Source of the DNA: Halobacteriovorax sp. HLS
Lineage (GTDB): Bacteria; Bdellovibrionota; Bacteriovoracia; Bacteriovoracales; Bacteriovoracaceae
Reading direction: 5' to 3'
DNA: 64,000 nt
Assembly (NCBI RefSeq): GCF_004006665.1
Contig: NZ_QOCL01000014.1
Location: forward strand, 62,001-126,000
This document shows positions 31,509 to 39,186 of this stretch, piece by piece. The notes beneath the pieces were generated by a model. That model saw only the letters and a list, made by a program, of their open reading frames with translations, had not been told where the DNA came from and made no database searches. Position numbers and translations under genes: made by a program. Numbering within the stretch: the first letter of the stretch is position 1; every line of letters starts with the position of its first letter.

Positions 31509-33302
31509 ATGTCAAAAAGAATTGTAGTGTTTGCACTAATGAGCAGTTTTTCAGTCTTTGGTAAACAGTCAGTTACAGTAACAGCAGAAAAAATTGAAAG
31601 ATCTTATGATGAGACAACTAGTAATGTTCAAGTCATTGATCTCGAAGAAATTGAGAAATCTCAAACTACAAATTTAGCAGACTTAATAGAGAAGAAAAGT
31701 GGACTCTTTGTAAATTCAAATGGGAGTTACGGGAAGTCTACGTCACTTTTTCTTCGCGGTGCAGACTCAAGCTTTACTTTAATTGTTATTGATGGAGTTG
31801 AATACAATGACAAGAGCTCTGTTGGTGGTGGATCAGTTCTAGATCATATTGACCTATCAAATGTAGAGAAAGTTGAAATTTTAAAAGGTTCTCAAAGTGT
31901 TCTCTACGGCTCAGATGCAATGGCCGGTGTGATTAATATAACGACGAAAAATCCTAAAGGAACAAAAGAGGCCTTAGGTTCAGTAAGTTACGGAAGTTTT
32001 AAAAATAAAAGAGCAAGCTTTAGCGCAAGAAACTCTGGGAAGCGAGTGGACTACTCTATGGGTCTGAGTTTTCAAGATGTAGAAGGAATTTCATCTTATA
32101 ATGAAGATAGAGTTATTATGGCCGAAAAGGATGGTTATAATAACTTAACTGCCTCATTTAAGGCGACAACATCGATATCAACCAAAGATGAGCTTTCTCT
32201 TAGCATTCGATCCGTTAAGGCTGAAAGTGATTTTGATGCGTCGACGGCCGATAAACTTGATTATGTGGGTAGAGATGCACAAACCATTTCAAGTCTTTTT
32301 TACAAGTATAAGGCAACGAAAGTGTGGGAGCCCAAACTTAAAGTCTCTCATAATAAGTCTGATAGACTTTCGAATTCATTTTCTTTATCACGATTAGTTT
32401 CTAAGGTTAATAAGGTTGAGTTGGAGAACCCTTTTGTTCTCAGTAAGGCACTAACATTGTTAAATGGCTTTGAGTACGAGAAGACTAAAGCAAGCATTGG
32501 TACAATTGATAATAAGAAAAACTTTGAGTCAGTAGCAGGCTATCTAGATGCTCATGGTAAGTTCCAGAAGCTTAGTTTACATGGTGGTGTGCGCTGGACA
32601 AATGAAAGTACTTATTCTTATAGAGTTGTCTGGAAAATTGGAGCTTCATATCCAGTATTTAAGAAAACGGATTTAAAGATAAATGCTTCAACAGGTTTTA
32701 AGTCTCCAAGTTTATATCAGCTATATAGTAATTTCGGTAATACCGCTCTAAGTCCTACTCAAAGTGAGAGTTTTGATCTTTCTATCACACAATTTATTCT
32801 TTCTTCAAAATTTGAGCTGACTTACTTTAATGACAATTACGATAATATTATTGATTTTGATTCAGTTTCTAATAGGTATGAAAATATATCTAAAGCAGAC
32901 ATAGAGGGATTTGAATTAAACTACTTTGGTGAAAGCCGCTCTTTTGATTGGAAAGTAGGAACAACTCTATTAAGTGCAATAAATAACTCGACTGGAAAAG
33001 AAGGTCAGTACCTTCCACGAAGACCAAGGCAAAAATATAATGCAAGTTTAGGTTGGAATGGATTTGAAAAGTTTAATAGTATTGTTGATTTCTCTTATGT
33101 TGGAGAAAGAGAAAATAGTGACTTTGATACTATTGTTCTGTCGTCATACTTTCTGGTAGATCTGAGATTTTCTTATGAACTTGGAGTTGATGATAAAGTA
33201 TTGTTTAAAGTAGGAAATCTCTTTGATAGAAAGTACGAGCAAGTTTATGGCTATGGAACACCTGGTATTAACTTCAATTTAACCTGGAAATTTAATATTT
33301 GA
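31509..33302 (+). CDS. btuB: TonB-dependent outer-membrane receptor, vitamin B12 (BtuB-type)
   Basis: 597 residues, close to E. coli BtuB length. Signal peptide about 1-18, then a TonB-box-like QSVTVTAEKIE. The plug domain (about 35-145) has the typical LADLIEKKSGLFV, FLRGADSSFTLIVIDGVE and VEKVEILKGSQSVLYG; the rest is a 22-strand barrel ending NFNLTWKFNI. It imports cobalamin across the outer membrane using energy from TonB. The assignment to B12 rests on the riboswitch upstream and btuFDC downstream. The stop overlaps the TTG start of tonB. Confidence 0.92.
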   Translation: MSKRIVVFALMSSFSVFGKQSVTVTAEKIERSYDETTSNVQVIDLEEIEKSQTTNLADLIEKKSGLFVNSNGSYGKSTSLFLRGADSSFTLIVIDGVEYNDKSSVGGGSVLDHIDLSNVEKVEILKGSQSVLYGSDAMAGVINITTKNPKGTKEALGSVSYGSFKNKRASFSARNSGKRVDYSMGLSFQDVEGISSYNEDRVIMAEKDGYNNLTASFKATTSISTKDELSLSIRSVKAESDFDASTADKLDYVGRDAQTISSLFYKYKATKVWEPKLKVSHNKSDRLSNSFSLSRLVSKVNKVELENPFVLSKALTLLNGFEYEKTKASIGTIDNKKNFESVAGYLDAHGKFQKLSLHGGVRWTNESTYSYRVVWKIGASYPVFKKTDLKINASTGFKSPSLYQLYSNFGNTALSPTQSESFDLSITQFILSSKFELTYFNDNYDNIIDFDSVSNRYENISKADIEGFELNYFGESRSFDWKVGTTLLSAINNSTGKEGQYLPRRPRQKYNASLGWNGFEKFNSIVDFSYVGERENSDFDTIVLSSYFLVDLRFSYELGVDDKVLFKVGNLFDRKYEQVYGYGTPGINFNLTWKFNI

Positions 33303-33817
33303 ATTTACGTATAGTTTTGATTTCATCTTTTATCTCGTTAGTAGGACATAGTTTTATCTTTGTTCGCTCATCTGTTGAAAGTTCGTCAGTTTTGACGAGC
33401 TTTTCCTCAAAGAAATCTAGTGTGAAAGTCTCCTTTAGAGAAATAAAAAAAAAGAAGAAAATATTAAAGCCTATGAAGAAAAAGAGTATCTCTAAAGAGA
33501 ATACTAAGAAATCTGTTCCTTTAAAGAATTTAGAAGTTGAACAGGCAAGTGTAGAGGCAAAGGTTTTAAATAAGATTATTCCAAAATATCCGCGTAAATC
33601 CAGAGTGTTTCGAGAAGAAGGAGTGGTCTTGTTGAAAGTCATTGTTGGCAATGATGGACGAGCGATTCGATCTGAACTGCTAAGCTCTAGTGGTTATGAA
33701 CGTTTAGATGAAGCTGCACGAGAAGCGGCACTTGCCAGCGAGTATGAAAGAGTGACTAATAATGACTCTATTAATAGTCATATAGAATTAGAGTTCAAAT
33801 TTGAACTCACTGAGTAA
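33299..33817 (+). CDS. tonB: TonB-like energy transducer of the B12 operon
   Basis: 172 residues with a TTG start overlapping the btuB TGA by four bases. One N-terminal transmembrane helix (about 4-22), a basic Lys-rich periplasmic linker (about 45-75) without the usual Pro-rich repeats, and a TonB C-terminal domain (about 85-172): IIPKYPRKSRVFREEGVVLL and VGNDGRAIRSELLSSSGYERLDEAA in two parts. It should pass proton-motive energy from ExbBD to BtuB. No exbB/exbD lies in this operon; the TolQ/TolR set at 19328-21067 is more likely a gliding motor. A dedicated TonB in a B12 operon is a useful functional hint. Confidence 0.88.
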   Translation: MNLRIVLISSFISLVGHSFIFVRSSVESSSVLTSFSSKKSSVKVSFREIKKKKKILKPMKKKSISKENTKKSVPLKNLEVEQASVEAKVLNKIIPKYPRKSRVFREEGVVLLKVIVGNDGRAIRSELLSSSGYERLDEAAREAALASEYERVTNNDSINSHIELEFKFELTE

Positions 33818-33828
33818 TTAGGTATACT
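33801..33828 (+). promoter_or_regulatory. Internal leaderless promoter candidate before btuF: TTGAAC-N16-TATACT-N5-ATG
   Basis: TTGAAC (33801-33806) and TATACT (33823-33828), 16 bp apart, lie across the end of tonB. The ATG of btuF (33834) is five bases after the -10. AGG at 33820-33822 is too far from the ATG for a good RBS. It could give btuFDC transcription outside riboswitch control. Confidence 0.5.
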
Positions 33829-33833
33829 GAATT

Positions 33834-34673
33834 ATGATTAAAATTCTTGGAATATTTTTCTTTCTTTTTTCTAGTGCTACCTTTTCCTACGAACGAGTAG
33901 TCTCTACTGTTCCTAGCATAACAGAAATACTTATTAGTTTAGGATTAGAGGAGAAAGTGATCGGAGTGAGTAGGTATTGCTTTTTTGATAATGATGTCTG
34001 TAAGAAAAATAAAATAGGAACGTCAATTGATCTTAACTATGAAAAGATCTTAACTCTTAGACCTGACTTAGTTCTTTTGAGTGCGAGTACAAAGACAAGC
34101 TCAATTTCAAGCTTTAGCAATATGAAAATTAAAGTAGTTTCTATAAAGCACGAAAGACTTGAAGATATATTTGAAGCAATTAATATACTGGCCAAAGAGT
34201 TTAAGGTTCAAAGTAGGGGAAAGGAATTGATTCAAAAAATGAATTCTGATCTTGAGAGAGTGGAACCGCTAAAAGGCAAAATTAAAATTCTACTTGTTAT
34301 TGGAGCTTCCATAAAAGGAGGCGAGGTTCTAAGTGCTCATGTTGCTGGTAGTGATAATTTCTATAATGATATCTTTGTAAAAATGGGGATTACGAATATT
34401 TTTGAAAATTCTAATATAGCTTATCCTCAATTAGATAGAGAGAGACTTCTTATGAATGAGGTCGATTATGTTGTTGAGATTTTTGATAAAGTGACTCCAG
34501 CAAAGTTGCAAAGTTCTAAAGAAGCTTGGGAGAAAATGTTTAAAAAAATGAAGACACCTACTCGTTATATTTCTCTTGTAGGAGATTACCTCTTTATTCC
34601 TGGTCCTAGAGTAGGAAGAATTGCAAAAGAACTCTTTAACCAAATGGGATTAGTAAATGTTAAAGGTAAATAA
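33834..34673 (+). CDS. btuF: Periplasmic B12-binding protein (BtuF-type)
   Basis: 279 residues with a signal peptide (cut about residue 18). Class III substrate-binding fold: VVSTVPSITEILISLGLEEK and VIGVSRYC at the start of the N lobe, KILTLRPDLVLLSAS (about 64-78), a long connecting helix (about 100-120), and a C lobe with LFIPGPRVGRIAKELF. The VPSITE motif with Glu is the contact for the BtuC Arg pocket. It delivers B12 to BtuCD. It overlaps btuD by 17 bp. Confidence 0.9.
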   Translation: MIKILGIFFFLFSSATFSYERVVSTVPSITEILISLGLEEKVIGVSRYCFFDNDVCKKNKIGTSIDLNYEKILTLRPDLVLLSASTKTSSISSFSNMKIKVVSIKHERLEDIFEAINILAKEFKVQSRGKELIQKMNSDLERVEPLKGKIKILLVIGASIKGGEVLSAHVAGSDNFYNDIFVKMGITNIFENSNIAYPQLDRERLLMNEVDYVVEIFDKVTPAKLQSSKEAWEKMFKKMKTPTRYISLVGDYLFIPGPRVGRIAKELFNQMGLVNVKGK

Positions 34674-35433
34674 CTTATCTCTTTCTTTAGGTAACAATAC
34701 TATCTTAGAGAATGTTTCTTTTGATCTGAAAGAGAATGAGTTCTTAACGATCCTAGGGCCTAATGGTTCAGGAAAATCAACACTCATAAAATCTCTCTGT
34801 GGCATTTATAGAAACTTTAGTGGAGAAGCTAGGATACTTGATAGATCAATTATTGATATTTCTCAAAAAGAATTGGCCACCTCTGTATCCTATGTTCCTC
34901 AGTTTCTCGAAATTCATGCTGACTATAGTGTTTGGGACTTTATGGAAATGAGTTACTTTCCTCATCTTGATAATTTTAGAGGACTTGTTCCCGAAGAAAT
35001 AGATAGGGCCCATGAAATATTAGAGAGATTTAACTTAGTTCATCTCAAAAGTCGATCTATGACTACATTAAGTGGAGGAGAGAGGCAGAAAGTTTTTATT
35101 GCTAGTTCTATTTTTCAGAATCCTCGATTACTACTTCTTGATGAACCAACAAGCTACTTAGATCCAAAGCACCAGGATGAAGTTAATGAAATAATCTTTT
35201 CTTTAAAAGAGGAGATGGCAGTCATTATGGTCTCCCATGATATAAATACTTCACTCCTAAATAGCTCTAGAGTTATGGGAATGAAAAACGGGTCTGTTCT
35301 TTTTGACTCATCTCCTAAAGAAATGATTAGTAATCAACTTTTAGATAAATTATTTGATAAAGAGTTTTCATTAACTATCCATCCGCAAAAGAATATTCAG
35401 TTTGTAGTTCCAAGGGTATTTGATGAAAATTAA
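34657..35433 (+). CDS. btuD: B12 ABC transporter ATPase (BtuD-type)
   Basis: 258 residues. Walker A GPNGSGKST (about 34-42), Q-loop SYVPQFLE, signature LSGGERQK (about 137-144), Walker B LLLLDEPTS (about 157-165), and H-loop SHD. FecE/BtuD-type importer ATPase working with the permease encoded next. The start at 34657 lies inside the 3' end of btuF; the end overlaps btuC by 11 bp. Confidence 0.92.
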   Translation: MLKVNNLSLSLGNNTILENVSFDLKENEFLTILGPNGSGKSTLIKSLCGIYRNFSGEARILDRSIIDISQKELATSVSYVPQFLEIHADYSVWDFMEMSYFPHLDNFRGLVPEEIDRAHEILERFNLVHLKSRSMTTLSGGERQKVFIASSIFQNPRLLLLDEPTSYLDPKHQDEVNEIIFSLKEEMAVIMVSHDINTSLLNSSRVMGMKNGSVLFDSSPKEMISNQLLDKLFDKEFSLTIHPQKNIQFVVPRVFDEN

Positions 35434-36376
35434 ATTACTAATCTTAAGCCTCGTTACAATGCTTGTATTTATTCTCTCTATAGCAATAGGCCCTGGGGAG
35501 ATTCAGTTTGGAACGCAAATGTTTAATGAAGTCATTCTAAATATTCGACTTCCTCGGGTTTTTACGGCCTTCATGGTTGGAGGTATTCTCTCTTTAAGTG
35601 GGCTTTTATTTCAAGCTATGTTTAGAAACTCTCTTGCTACACCATATACTTTAGGTGTTGCTAGTGGAGCATCTTTAGGAGCGGCCTTCTATCTCGTTCT
35701 TGGACTGAGTTACACTTATACATTTTTTAACGGTGTAACTTTATTTAGTTTTTTGGGAGCTCTTAGCTGTGTAGCTTTTGTATATGGGCTTGCAAGAACA
35801 AGAGGCAGGGTCGAGACGCATACGCTCTTATTAAGTGGAATTGTTATCTCAATGCTTTGTTCTAGTCTTATACTCTTTATACAGTTTCTAGGTCATGAAA
35901 GGGATGCTCTATTGATGGTTCGTTGGCTAATGGGAGGGCTCGATGTTGTTGGTTATAGTGCTCCAATAAGACTTGCACCATTTGCAGTGGCAGCTTTGAT
36001 TTTTTCTATAACTAAGGCCTCTCAATTGAATATTCTCTTTTTAGGGGATGATCTGGCCATCTCTAGAGGAGTTGATGTTACGAAGCTTAGAAGATCTTTG
36101 TACTTTCTAAACTCACTCATTATTGCTGCAGTTGTGGCCGAATGTGGGCCAATTGGCTTCATTGGTTTAGTCGGTCCTCATATTTCTAAGAAGATTTTTT
36201 CATCTAAGCATCAGGAGTTAATTCCGAGTACTTTCGTTTTGGGTGGATGTCTCTTAATGTTGTGTGACTTAATTGCTCGCAATATTATGAGTGAAACGCA
36301 ATTACCTGTCGGAGTAATGACCGCGCTTTTAGGTGGGCCATTCTTCCTGTATCTACTTTTGGTTCGAAAGAAATAG
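35423..36376 (+). CDS. btuC: B12 ABC transporter permease (BtuC-type, FecCD family)
   Basis: 317 residues from the ATG at 35423 (AAGGG six bases upstream; the TTG at 35420 is rejected). About ten transmembrane helices with FecCD signatures: RLPRVFTAFMVGGILSLSG (about 42-60), NSLATPYTLGVASGASLGA, and GPIGFIGLVGPHISK (about 237-251) that forms the ATPase coupling helix. It moves B12 across the inner membrane with BtuD and BtuF. Last gene of the btu operon; only a weak hairpin (ACAAT/ATTGT) follows, before the non-coding region at 36377-36982. Confidence 0.92.
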   Translation: MKIKLLILSLVTMLVFILSIAIGPGEIQFGTQMFNEVILNIRLPRVFTAFMVGGILSLSGLLFQAMFRNSLATPYTLGVASGASLGAAFYLVLGLSYTYTFFNGVTLFSFLGALSCVAFVYGLARTRGRVETHTLLLSGIVISMLCSSLILFIQFLGHERDALLMVRWLMGGLDVVGYSAPIRLAPFAVAALIFSITKASQLNILFLGDDLAISRGVDVTKLRRSLYFLNSLIIAAVVAECGPIGFIGLVGPHISKKIFSSKHQELIPSTFVLGGCLLMLCDLIARNIMSETQLPVGVMTALLGGPFFLYLLLVRKK

Positions 36377-36619
36377 TAGACAATTTTCATTGTAAGAAAT
36401 GGTTAAGAGTCAAAATTTTGTCTTAACCTGGTTGTTTTTGACACCTCTTTTTCTTAGTTATCTCAACTATTTAAATTAGATTTATGTACTTAACCTTAAT
36501 ACACTCCTTGCAAGTTTCTGGTATTTGGTTTGGCCAGAGAATGTAAGTTTGATAAATTTCGACAGTAGTACTACCAGTGACAATTTGGCGATGACTAATC
36601 AACTGAAATCATAACAGAG

Positions 36620-36984
36620 TTAAGAGTGCCCCTATGTGACGTAGGGGCAAGTTGTCACCTAAGTGCGTCAAGTAGCTGAAAACCACTTTTTAAAGTTGGC
36701 ATCAGGCTTGCTTAGTAGAATGTATGAATTATCAAGGATGATAATTCGAGAGTATCACGGATGATGAAAAGACCACTTTGTGAAGTTTCTACGGATGGAG
36801 ACATAGTAGTAAAGAGGTCAAGTTAATGACTTACAGGATGTAAATCAGAGACACCAAAAAAACCGAGTTTGATTACCTGACTTTCCCTCTCTCTAGCTAG
36901 GAAAATCAACTCAAAACTAATTGGTACCCTTAGGCCATAAAATAGAAGAGTTTAAAAAAATCGTCTACAGGGTACCTTTTGTTT
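36620..36984 (+). ncRNA. Candidate CsrB/RsmZ-like small RNA with four GGA-loop hairpins
   Basis: 606 bp without a gene (36377-36982). On the + strand a 7-bp GC hairpin (GCCCCTA 36628-36634 with TAGGGGC 36642-36648) is followed by four hairpins with GGA in the loop. H1: GAATTATC/GATAATTC (36726-36733, 36740-36747), loop AAGGAT. H2: ATCA/TGAT (36754-36757, 36762-36765), loop CGGA. H3: GTTTC/GAGAC (36785-36789, 36798-36802), loop TACGGATG, on an outer stem 36771-36779/36811-36819. H4: TTACA/TGTAA (36831-36835, 36839-36843), loop GGA. CAAGGATG and CAGGATG match the CsrA-site core. An inverted repeat plus T-rich tail at 36923-36984 could end it. The ends are uncertain; by analogy it would titrate CsrA. 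Confidence 0.6.
36923..36984 (+). terminator. Terminator-like inverted repeat GGTACCCT/AGGGTACC with T-rich tail
   Basis: GGTACCCT (36923-36930) and AGGGTACC (36969-36976) form eight perfect base pairs around a 38-base loop, followed by TTTTGTTT on the + strand. The loop is long for an intrinsic terminator. Its position, just before the convergent chemotaxis gene stop, fits the end of the candidate RNA. Confidence 0.45.
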
Positions 36985-38700: not shown

Positions 38701-39186
38701 ATGATCGAAAAGTCATATATGATAAACTCATCTAGGGAAATATTCATCTTCTTTTTAAAACTCAGTGATCAACTACCAGAGTTCTACTTTCATATGGCAA
38801 CCATGTTTAAAGGTTATGGAATATCTCTAGTGCCTATTTCTCCAAAGGATTTAAAAGAAATAAAGCACAATAGCCGTGAGTATATTGTTTCTGTAAATAG
38901 TGATTTCACTAAATATCGAAATTTTCTAGTCGCGCGAAAAACTTATATAGATTATATGGTTTTAAATAAAAAGTTCTGCCTTTTTGATATTTCAAGTTTT
39001 GAGATGGCCGATATTGCAAGTAGGGGATTTAGAACTAAGTCCTATCACTATTTTTCATTACCAGTTAATATAGAAGAAACTGTTAAGTTAATTGCGATTT
39101 CAATTTATGAAGATCGTAAAACAAAATCAAACTGGCCAGGAGGAGTTAGATCTAAACTTCCTTCTGATGTGGGAAATAAGGTATGA
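38701..39186 (+). CDS. Unknown cytoplasmic protein, first of a coupled pair
   Basis: 161 residues, no signal peptide. Mixed alpha/beta composition (e.g. MFKGYGISLVPISPKDL, about 38-54; YMVLNKKFCLFDIS, about 83-96). No motif that I recognise. GGAG ends only two bases before the ATG, an unusually tight spacing; an alternative in-frame ATG is at 38719. The end overlaps the next gene by four bases, so the two are co-translated and probably act together. The 146 bp upstream hold the divergent start of the chemotaxis receptor. Confidence 0.6.
   Translation: MIEKSYMINSSREIFIFFLKLSDQLPEFYFHMATMFKGYGISLVPISPKDLKEIKHNSREYIVSVNSDFTKYRNFLVARKTYIDYMVLNKKFCLFDISSFEMADIASRGFRTKSYHYFSLPVNIEETVKLIAISIYEDRKTKSNWPGGVRSKLPSDVGNKV

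Follow-up and report, generated by a model that had tools for sequence, protein, structure and literature searches.

The window analysed here, a stretch of 64 kb, forms part of the 3.84-Mb genome of a Halobacteriovorax strain (G000). It contains a gene-free gap of 606 bp, bounded by the end of a btuC-type FecCD transporter gene at 36376 and by that of a convergent chemotaxis receptor (MCP) gene of the minus strand at 36983; inside this gap lies the plus-strand feature described below. The FecCD permease gene belongs to a cobalamin-uptake-like cluster (31509-36376), together with genes for a TonB-dependent receptor, a TonB-like protein, a periplasmic binding protein and an ATPase. An Rfam scan of the entire window revealed no cobalamin riboswitch, and a phage sequence collection yielded no match.

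The core of the feature consists of four hairpins on the plus strand, each with GGA in its loop. H1 (36726-36747) has a perfect stem of 8 bp and the loop AAGGAT (GGA at 36736-36738), whereas the stem of H2 (36753-36766; GGA at 36759-36761) is weak, with 4 bp. H3 (36785-36802; GGA at 36793-36795) contains 7 bp, including two G-U pairs, within an outer helix at 36771-36820. H4 (UUACAGGAUGUAA, 36828-36846; GGA at 36836-36838), the closest of the hairpins to the CsrA consensus, pairs over 5 bp beside the loop, or over 8 bp with one C.A mismatch. In partition-function folding of the window sequence all four GGA motifs are unpaired, with probabilities of 0.77-1.0 (about 0.8 for H2 and 0.93-1 for H3). 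The gap between convergent genes, the number of GGA loops, the stems of H1 and H4 and the outer stem of H3 had all been proposed in the initial annotation, and thermodynamic folding agrees with the hairpins; a further hairpin with a CU-rich loop, at 36865-36912, had been overlooked. When the 128-nt core was shuffled 2000 times by dinucleotides, four non-overlapping GGA-loop hairpins were reached only twice, and the core is the only one of 7,984 segments of that length, on both strands of the 64 kb, to contain four. The weakness of H2 might be taken as a sign that the hairpins arose by chance in an AT-rich spacer between genes, but this explanation is already contradicted by both counts, by the five-species covariation and by the conserved promoter and terminator, and we consider it extremely improbable.

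A sigma54-type -24/-12 promoter, TTGGCATCAGGCTTGCT (GG-N10-GC), is located at 36696-36712 on the plus strand. Placing the C of GC at -12, according to the usual sigma54 geometry, gives a predicted transcription start at about 36723, three bases before H1. The element TTGGCATCAGGCTTGC (36696-36711) matches TTGGCAY-N5-TTGC perfectly, as no other site in the window does, and the form TTGGCAYC-N4-TTGCT is kept at the locus in all five Halobacteriovorax genomes compared (G000 and four relatives). Besides this GG-N10-GC element, a gene for RpoN is present in the genome. Within the genus, the sigma54 pattern combined with downstream GGA motifs gave 50 matches, versus 3 for a reversed control. A scan of the region for sigma70 promoters gave nothing.

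An unstranded palindrome, GCCCCTA-N7-TAGGGGC (36628-36648), located some 85 bp ahead of the predicted start, is a candidate activator (enhancer) site; activators that bind sigma54 enhancers act at such an upstream distance. The palindrome is present in a single copy in the genome. All five Halobacteriovorax genomes have it at this locus, and G030, G036 and G111 at the equivalent one; its conservation at about -85 covers three genera. It forms a conserved island with an identity of 0.85 between flanks of 0.57 and 0.44. A second conserved box, GCAAGTTTCTGGTATTTGGTTTGGCCAGAGAATGTAAG (36510-36547, likewise unstranded), is a candidate for a further activator site; mean pairwise identity over 36501-36550 is 0.71 in the genus alignment. 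Boxes of the type TTTGACAC / GTGTCAAA occur upstream of sigma54/GGA promoters 17 times, versus 0.34 expected, among 23 loci. These boxes represent a second candidate activator site, and one lies near 36440 in the window. We also considered control by GacA/UvrY, which was rejected as the box TGTAAGN6CTTACA was not found: between 32 and 50 kb there are only matches with three mismatches, the count in the window is at chance level, and conserved TGTAAG half-sites are all that remains of the box.

Downstream of H4, the CU-loop hairpin (36865-36912, plus strand) exposes in its large loop a pyrimidine tract, UUUCCCUCUCUCU (36882-36894), which is kept in all five genomes of the genus. It is followed by an intrinsic terminator (36923-36980, plus strand), with arms GGTACCC... 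and ...GGGTACC and then TTTT, in which a 7-bp core lengthens to 13 bp if one bulge is allowed and one G-C pair is replaced by a compensatory U-A pair. A simple terminator scan reported nothing at the region, the loop being too long for that scan. Since the predicted start lies at about 36723 and the terminator ends at about 36980, the predicted non-coding RNA (36723-36980, plus strand) measures about 258 nt from promoter to terminator. The T-tailed inverted repeat formerly suggested as the end of the RNA therefore stands, while the proposed length of about 365 nt does not, and the start assigned to 36620 is too early, the palindrome at 36628-36648 lying upstream of the promoter. A hairpin at 36628 was for the same reason rejected as the 5' end of the RNA.

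The region occurs once per genome in all five members of the genus, with 75-78% identity. Mean column identity is 83-86% over the RNA interval (36723-36980) in the genus alignments and falls to 0.35 past the terminator; the linker after H4 is poorly kept (mean identity 0.58). All four GGA motifs are invariant in the five genomes, and the stems carry compensatory changes, so that the alignment of the four relatives agrees with the hairpins first proposed. Two stem pairs of H1 are changed on both sides among the five species; H2 keeps its inner ATC/GAT; H3 is invariant in 18 of 18 columns; and H4 shows a compensatory change from U-A to C-G in G003. For the structure composed of H1-H4, the CU hairpin and the terminator, 94.5% of cells in the five-species alignment pair, compared with 27-41% when the partners are slid by 1-3 columns as a control. 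Four pairs are changed on both sides, a number also reached by 25 of 500 shuffles; because only five related sequences are available, the covariation supports the structure but does not prove it. No conserved open reading frame was found in the five-genome alignment, where internal stops and indels (1, 2 and 4 nt) exclude one. A peptide-like reading (EVSTDGDIVVKRS...) in one frame of some relatives was discarded, being broken by indels of 1-2 nt and by a stop in G002.

The presence of csrA in this organism, formerly presumed, could be established. The encoded CsrA has 75 residues, belongs to the NCBIfam equivalog TIGR00202 and contains an HREE motif; it aligns to solved CsrA structures (best match, 5dmb), and both N55 and R44, the RNA-binding arginine, are kept. 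The gene sits in a flgK-flgL-csrA-fliW arrangement (flgK and flgL named from reading the sequences), and fliW follows closely behind csrA in all five genomes of the genus. The role of N55 is taken from PMC13407953, according to which no Csr sRNA has been characterised in Geobacter. Csr sRNAs have been described as a Gammaproteobacterial feature, fliW being absent there and anti-correlated with BarA-UvrY, and the joint action of FliW and sRNAs in any species was stated still to be determined (PMC7652899). As csrA-fliW and a conserved sponge-like RNA occur together in all five genomes, this question becomes directly testable.

We consider it likely that the locus encodes a sigma54-dependent small RNA that titrates CsrA, with the CU loop as a separate functional element; that the RNA is made, that it binds and sequesters CsrA and what its CU loop does are inferred here from sequence. 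An enhancer-binding activator, with the palindrome at 36628-36648 as its candidate site, would switch on the promoter at 36696-36712, and RNA polymerase would then transcribe as far as the terminator at 36923-36980, giving an RNA of about 258 nt. The four GGA-loop hairpins could hold about two CsrA dimers, and the titration would relieve CsrA control of other mRNAs, including sigma54-driven leaders with hairpins of the same kind. This sponge would perhaps possess a second, antisense activity: the exposed UCCCUCUCUC loop, as a separate element, would most likely be an antisense seed that pairs with purine-rich Shine-Dalgarno regions (GGGAGAG). Two points against a sponge are that four sites are few beside the 22 GGA motifs of CsrB (PMC7652899) and that H2 is weak.

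The CU loop also provides the basis for a different proposal, in which the RNA acts by base pairing through this loop and CsrA binds only for stability or for presentation of the seed. In five genomes of g12 a ACATCCCTCTCTCCCT tract lies in a comparable loop (0.81-1.0 unpaired) followed by a terminator-like hairpin, and the tract is strictly kept while the flanking stem changes between species, the varying arms nevertheless pairing (TCTAAGACA/TGTCTTAGA, AAGCTTTGG/CCAAAGCTT). Inspection by eye shows that sigma54 mRNAs of this genome contain Shine-Dalgarno-like GGGAGAG stretches to which the tract is complementary. Nonetheless, four separate GGA hairpins exceed the need for a chaperone site, and the members of g56 and g15 have no exact CU tract, such that we regard base pairing as the main activity as unlikely. 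A pyrimidine tract preceded by at least two GGA[AT]G motifs within 110 nt was found at 12 of 90 loci in sense orientation and at none of the 90 in antisense; three of the twelve matches (L096, L099 and L202) were discounted as signal-peptide codons.

Beyond the genus, the locus can be followed by means of a downstream gene (38701-39183, plus strand) for a protein of 161 residues, found beside the RNA locus in 114 of 129 genomes of the family. The protein has no match in Pfam or NCBIfam and may possibly be part of the same regulatory unit as the RNA. It exhibits conserved SSF and WPGGxRxKLP motifs, and in its predicted fold it is similar to the receiver domains of response regulators (TM about 0.5; the FleR receiver matches best). 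Upstream of this gene, GGA hairpins come after sigma54-type elements in g56, g15, g9, g18, g12, g33, g24, g4 and g27, the hairpins varying in number and spacing between genera. Genomes that carry the promoter with several GGA hairpins include G080, G079 and G078 (g56) and G018 (g15), and the combination is also seen in g9 and g18. In G030 (g27) the same palindrome is followed by a GG-N10-GC element, four GGA[AT]G motifs and a T-tailed hairpin before the next reading frame, and GGA hairpins, CU tract and terminator occur together in g12 (five genomes), g33 and g10 (G060). Other genera, too, have a UCCCUCUCUC-type loop behind GGA hairpins in this gene neighbourhood. At L166 (G077:C94), also upstream of the 161-residue protein gene, a segment with CCACGGAGGGACACTTAATTGGAAAAAAGTAAGATTGAGGGGAG forms a direct repeat, its copies separated by about 260 nt.

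A further point against a sponge is that several genera have these hairpins as mRNA leaders, so that their main task could be control in cis. The sigma54 and GGA elements of g24, g4 and parts of g33 and g12 lead into reading frames; the matches in g56, g15 and g9, where no terminator clearly separates the hairpins from the downstream gene, may be leaders as well. A gene for a secreted protease-like protein has similar hairpins ahead of its start codon in g14 and g7, pointing to a common origin of these presumably CsrA-controlled leaders and the Halobacteriovorax RNA; the tracts similar to the CU tract are signal-peptide codons there. At six g14 loci (L093, L095, L103, L105, L113 and L115) two GGA hairpins overlap the start of the protease-like gene and its signal-peptide codons make up a CU-rich stretch, an arrangement that matches the order H3, H4 and CU of the RNA. 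The RNA itself could accordingly be seen as a CsrA-controlled 5' leader or decayed mRNA, a relic of the regulation of a downstream gene, given that sigma54 promoters with GGA hairpins drive reading frames at the same locus in g14, g7, g33 and g12, that the g14 elements keep this order, and that many sigma54 leaders of the family carry GGA hairpins. Against this, the MCP gene is adjacent to and converges on the RNA in G000, G001, G003 and G004, a covarying terminator closes the unit and no reading frame is kept; moreover, the promoter, the GGA loops and the CU loop are better conserved than their flanks, and a relic would not show such conservation. An origin of the RNA from a leader is likely, but that it is still a leader or its relic appears improbable.

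The idea that all sigma54/GGA loci encode sRNAs was likewise abandoned, as most of those inspected are mRNA leaders. Sigma54-type promoters followed by GGA hairpins in such leaders were noted at L047, L049 and L051 in Halobacteriovorax and at L056-L076 and L083 in other genera. In the genus, the sigma54 leader of a flagellar hook/rod gene (FlgEFG family) carries GGA hairpins. Since other sigma54 leaders bear these hairpins, the sigma54 regulon is probably a target of CsrA, which the CsrA-titrating RNA, driven by that sigma factor too, would oppose. The locus is a candidate post-transcriptional switch, wired to sigma54, for a marine bacterial predator that alternates between a motile and a growing phase. 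More tentatively, and with greater doubt than belief, the whole family might possess a sigma54-controlled RNA of dual function (CsrA sponge and CU-loop antisense), sharing its origin with CsrA-regulated leaders and operating beside FliW; if true, predatory bacteria would have two independent antagonists of CsrA.

Comparison with known systems places the RNA outside the established families. Neither the window nor the loci of 14 relatives matched the Rfam models of CsrB, CsrC, RsmY and RsmZ at gathering score, and at E<=10 there were only chance hits; the earlier designation of the RNA as CsrB/RsmZ-like is to be read as one of function. The functional analogy is well supported, the RNA being predicted to work like CsrB/RsmZ without membership in their family: the genome combines four exposed GGA loops, invariant in five species, with a CsrA predicted to bind RNA and with a stand-alone gene that, as predicted from sequence and conservation, has its own promoter and intrinsic terminator and no reading frame. 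In common with CsrB/CsrC and RsmX/Y/Z it is a stand-alone intergenic RNA with several GGA hairpins, an intrinsic terminator and csrA in the genome. Unlike these RNAs of Gammaproteobacteria, it is found in Halobacteriovorax, outside that class, has no Rfam match and no UvrY/GacA box, and is associated with a sigma54 promoter, fliW and a CU loop. CrcZ of Pseudomonas and the Qrr RNAs of Vibrio are sigma54-dependent regulatory RNAs with an upstream activator, CrcZ acting by titration of an RNA-binding protein; instead of CsrA, these RNAs engage Hfq/Crc or, through Hfq, mRNAs. The likeness to the Halobacteriovorax RNA lies in the sigma54 promoter with an upstream activator, for which a candidate site is present here. 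RsmU of Xanthomonas is also a CsrA/RsmA sponge outside the classical families and linked to mRNA, a status that is predicted from sequence in the present case, but it is processed from a 3'UTR (PMC7694677), whereas the Halobacteriovorax RNA has its own predicted promoter and terminator. In the open-access literature, mostly consulted as titles and abstracts, where absence is no proof, we found no description of a Csr sRNA in Bdellovibrio-like organisms or of one with a sigma54 promoter. The AP-specific sRNAs and merRNA of Bdellovibrio bacteriovorus are, like the present RNA, non-coding RNAs of predatory bacteria; some have FliA promoters and merRNA holds a c-di-GMP riboswitch, and CsrA is not mentioned in that paper (PMC3627812). 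Relative to these systems, the new elements would be a sigma54 promoter in place of the UvrY/GacA box, neighbouring csrA and fliW genes alongside the RNA, the UCCCUCUCUC-type loop, and the GGA hairpins in sigma54 leaders.
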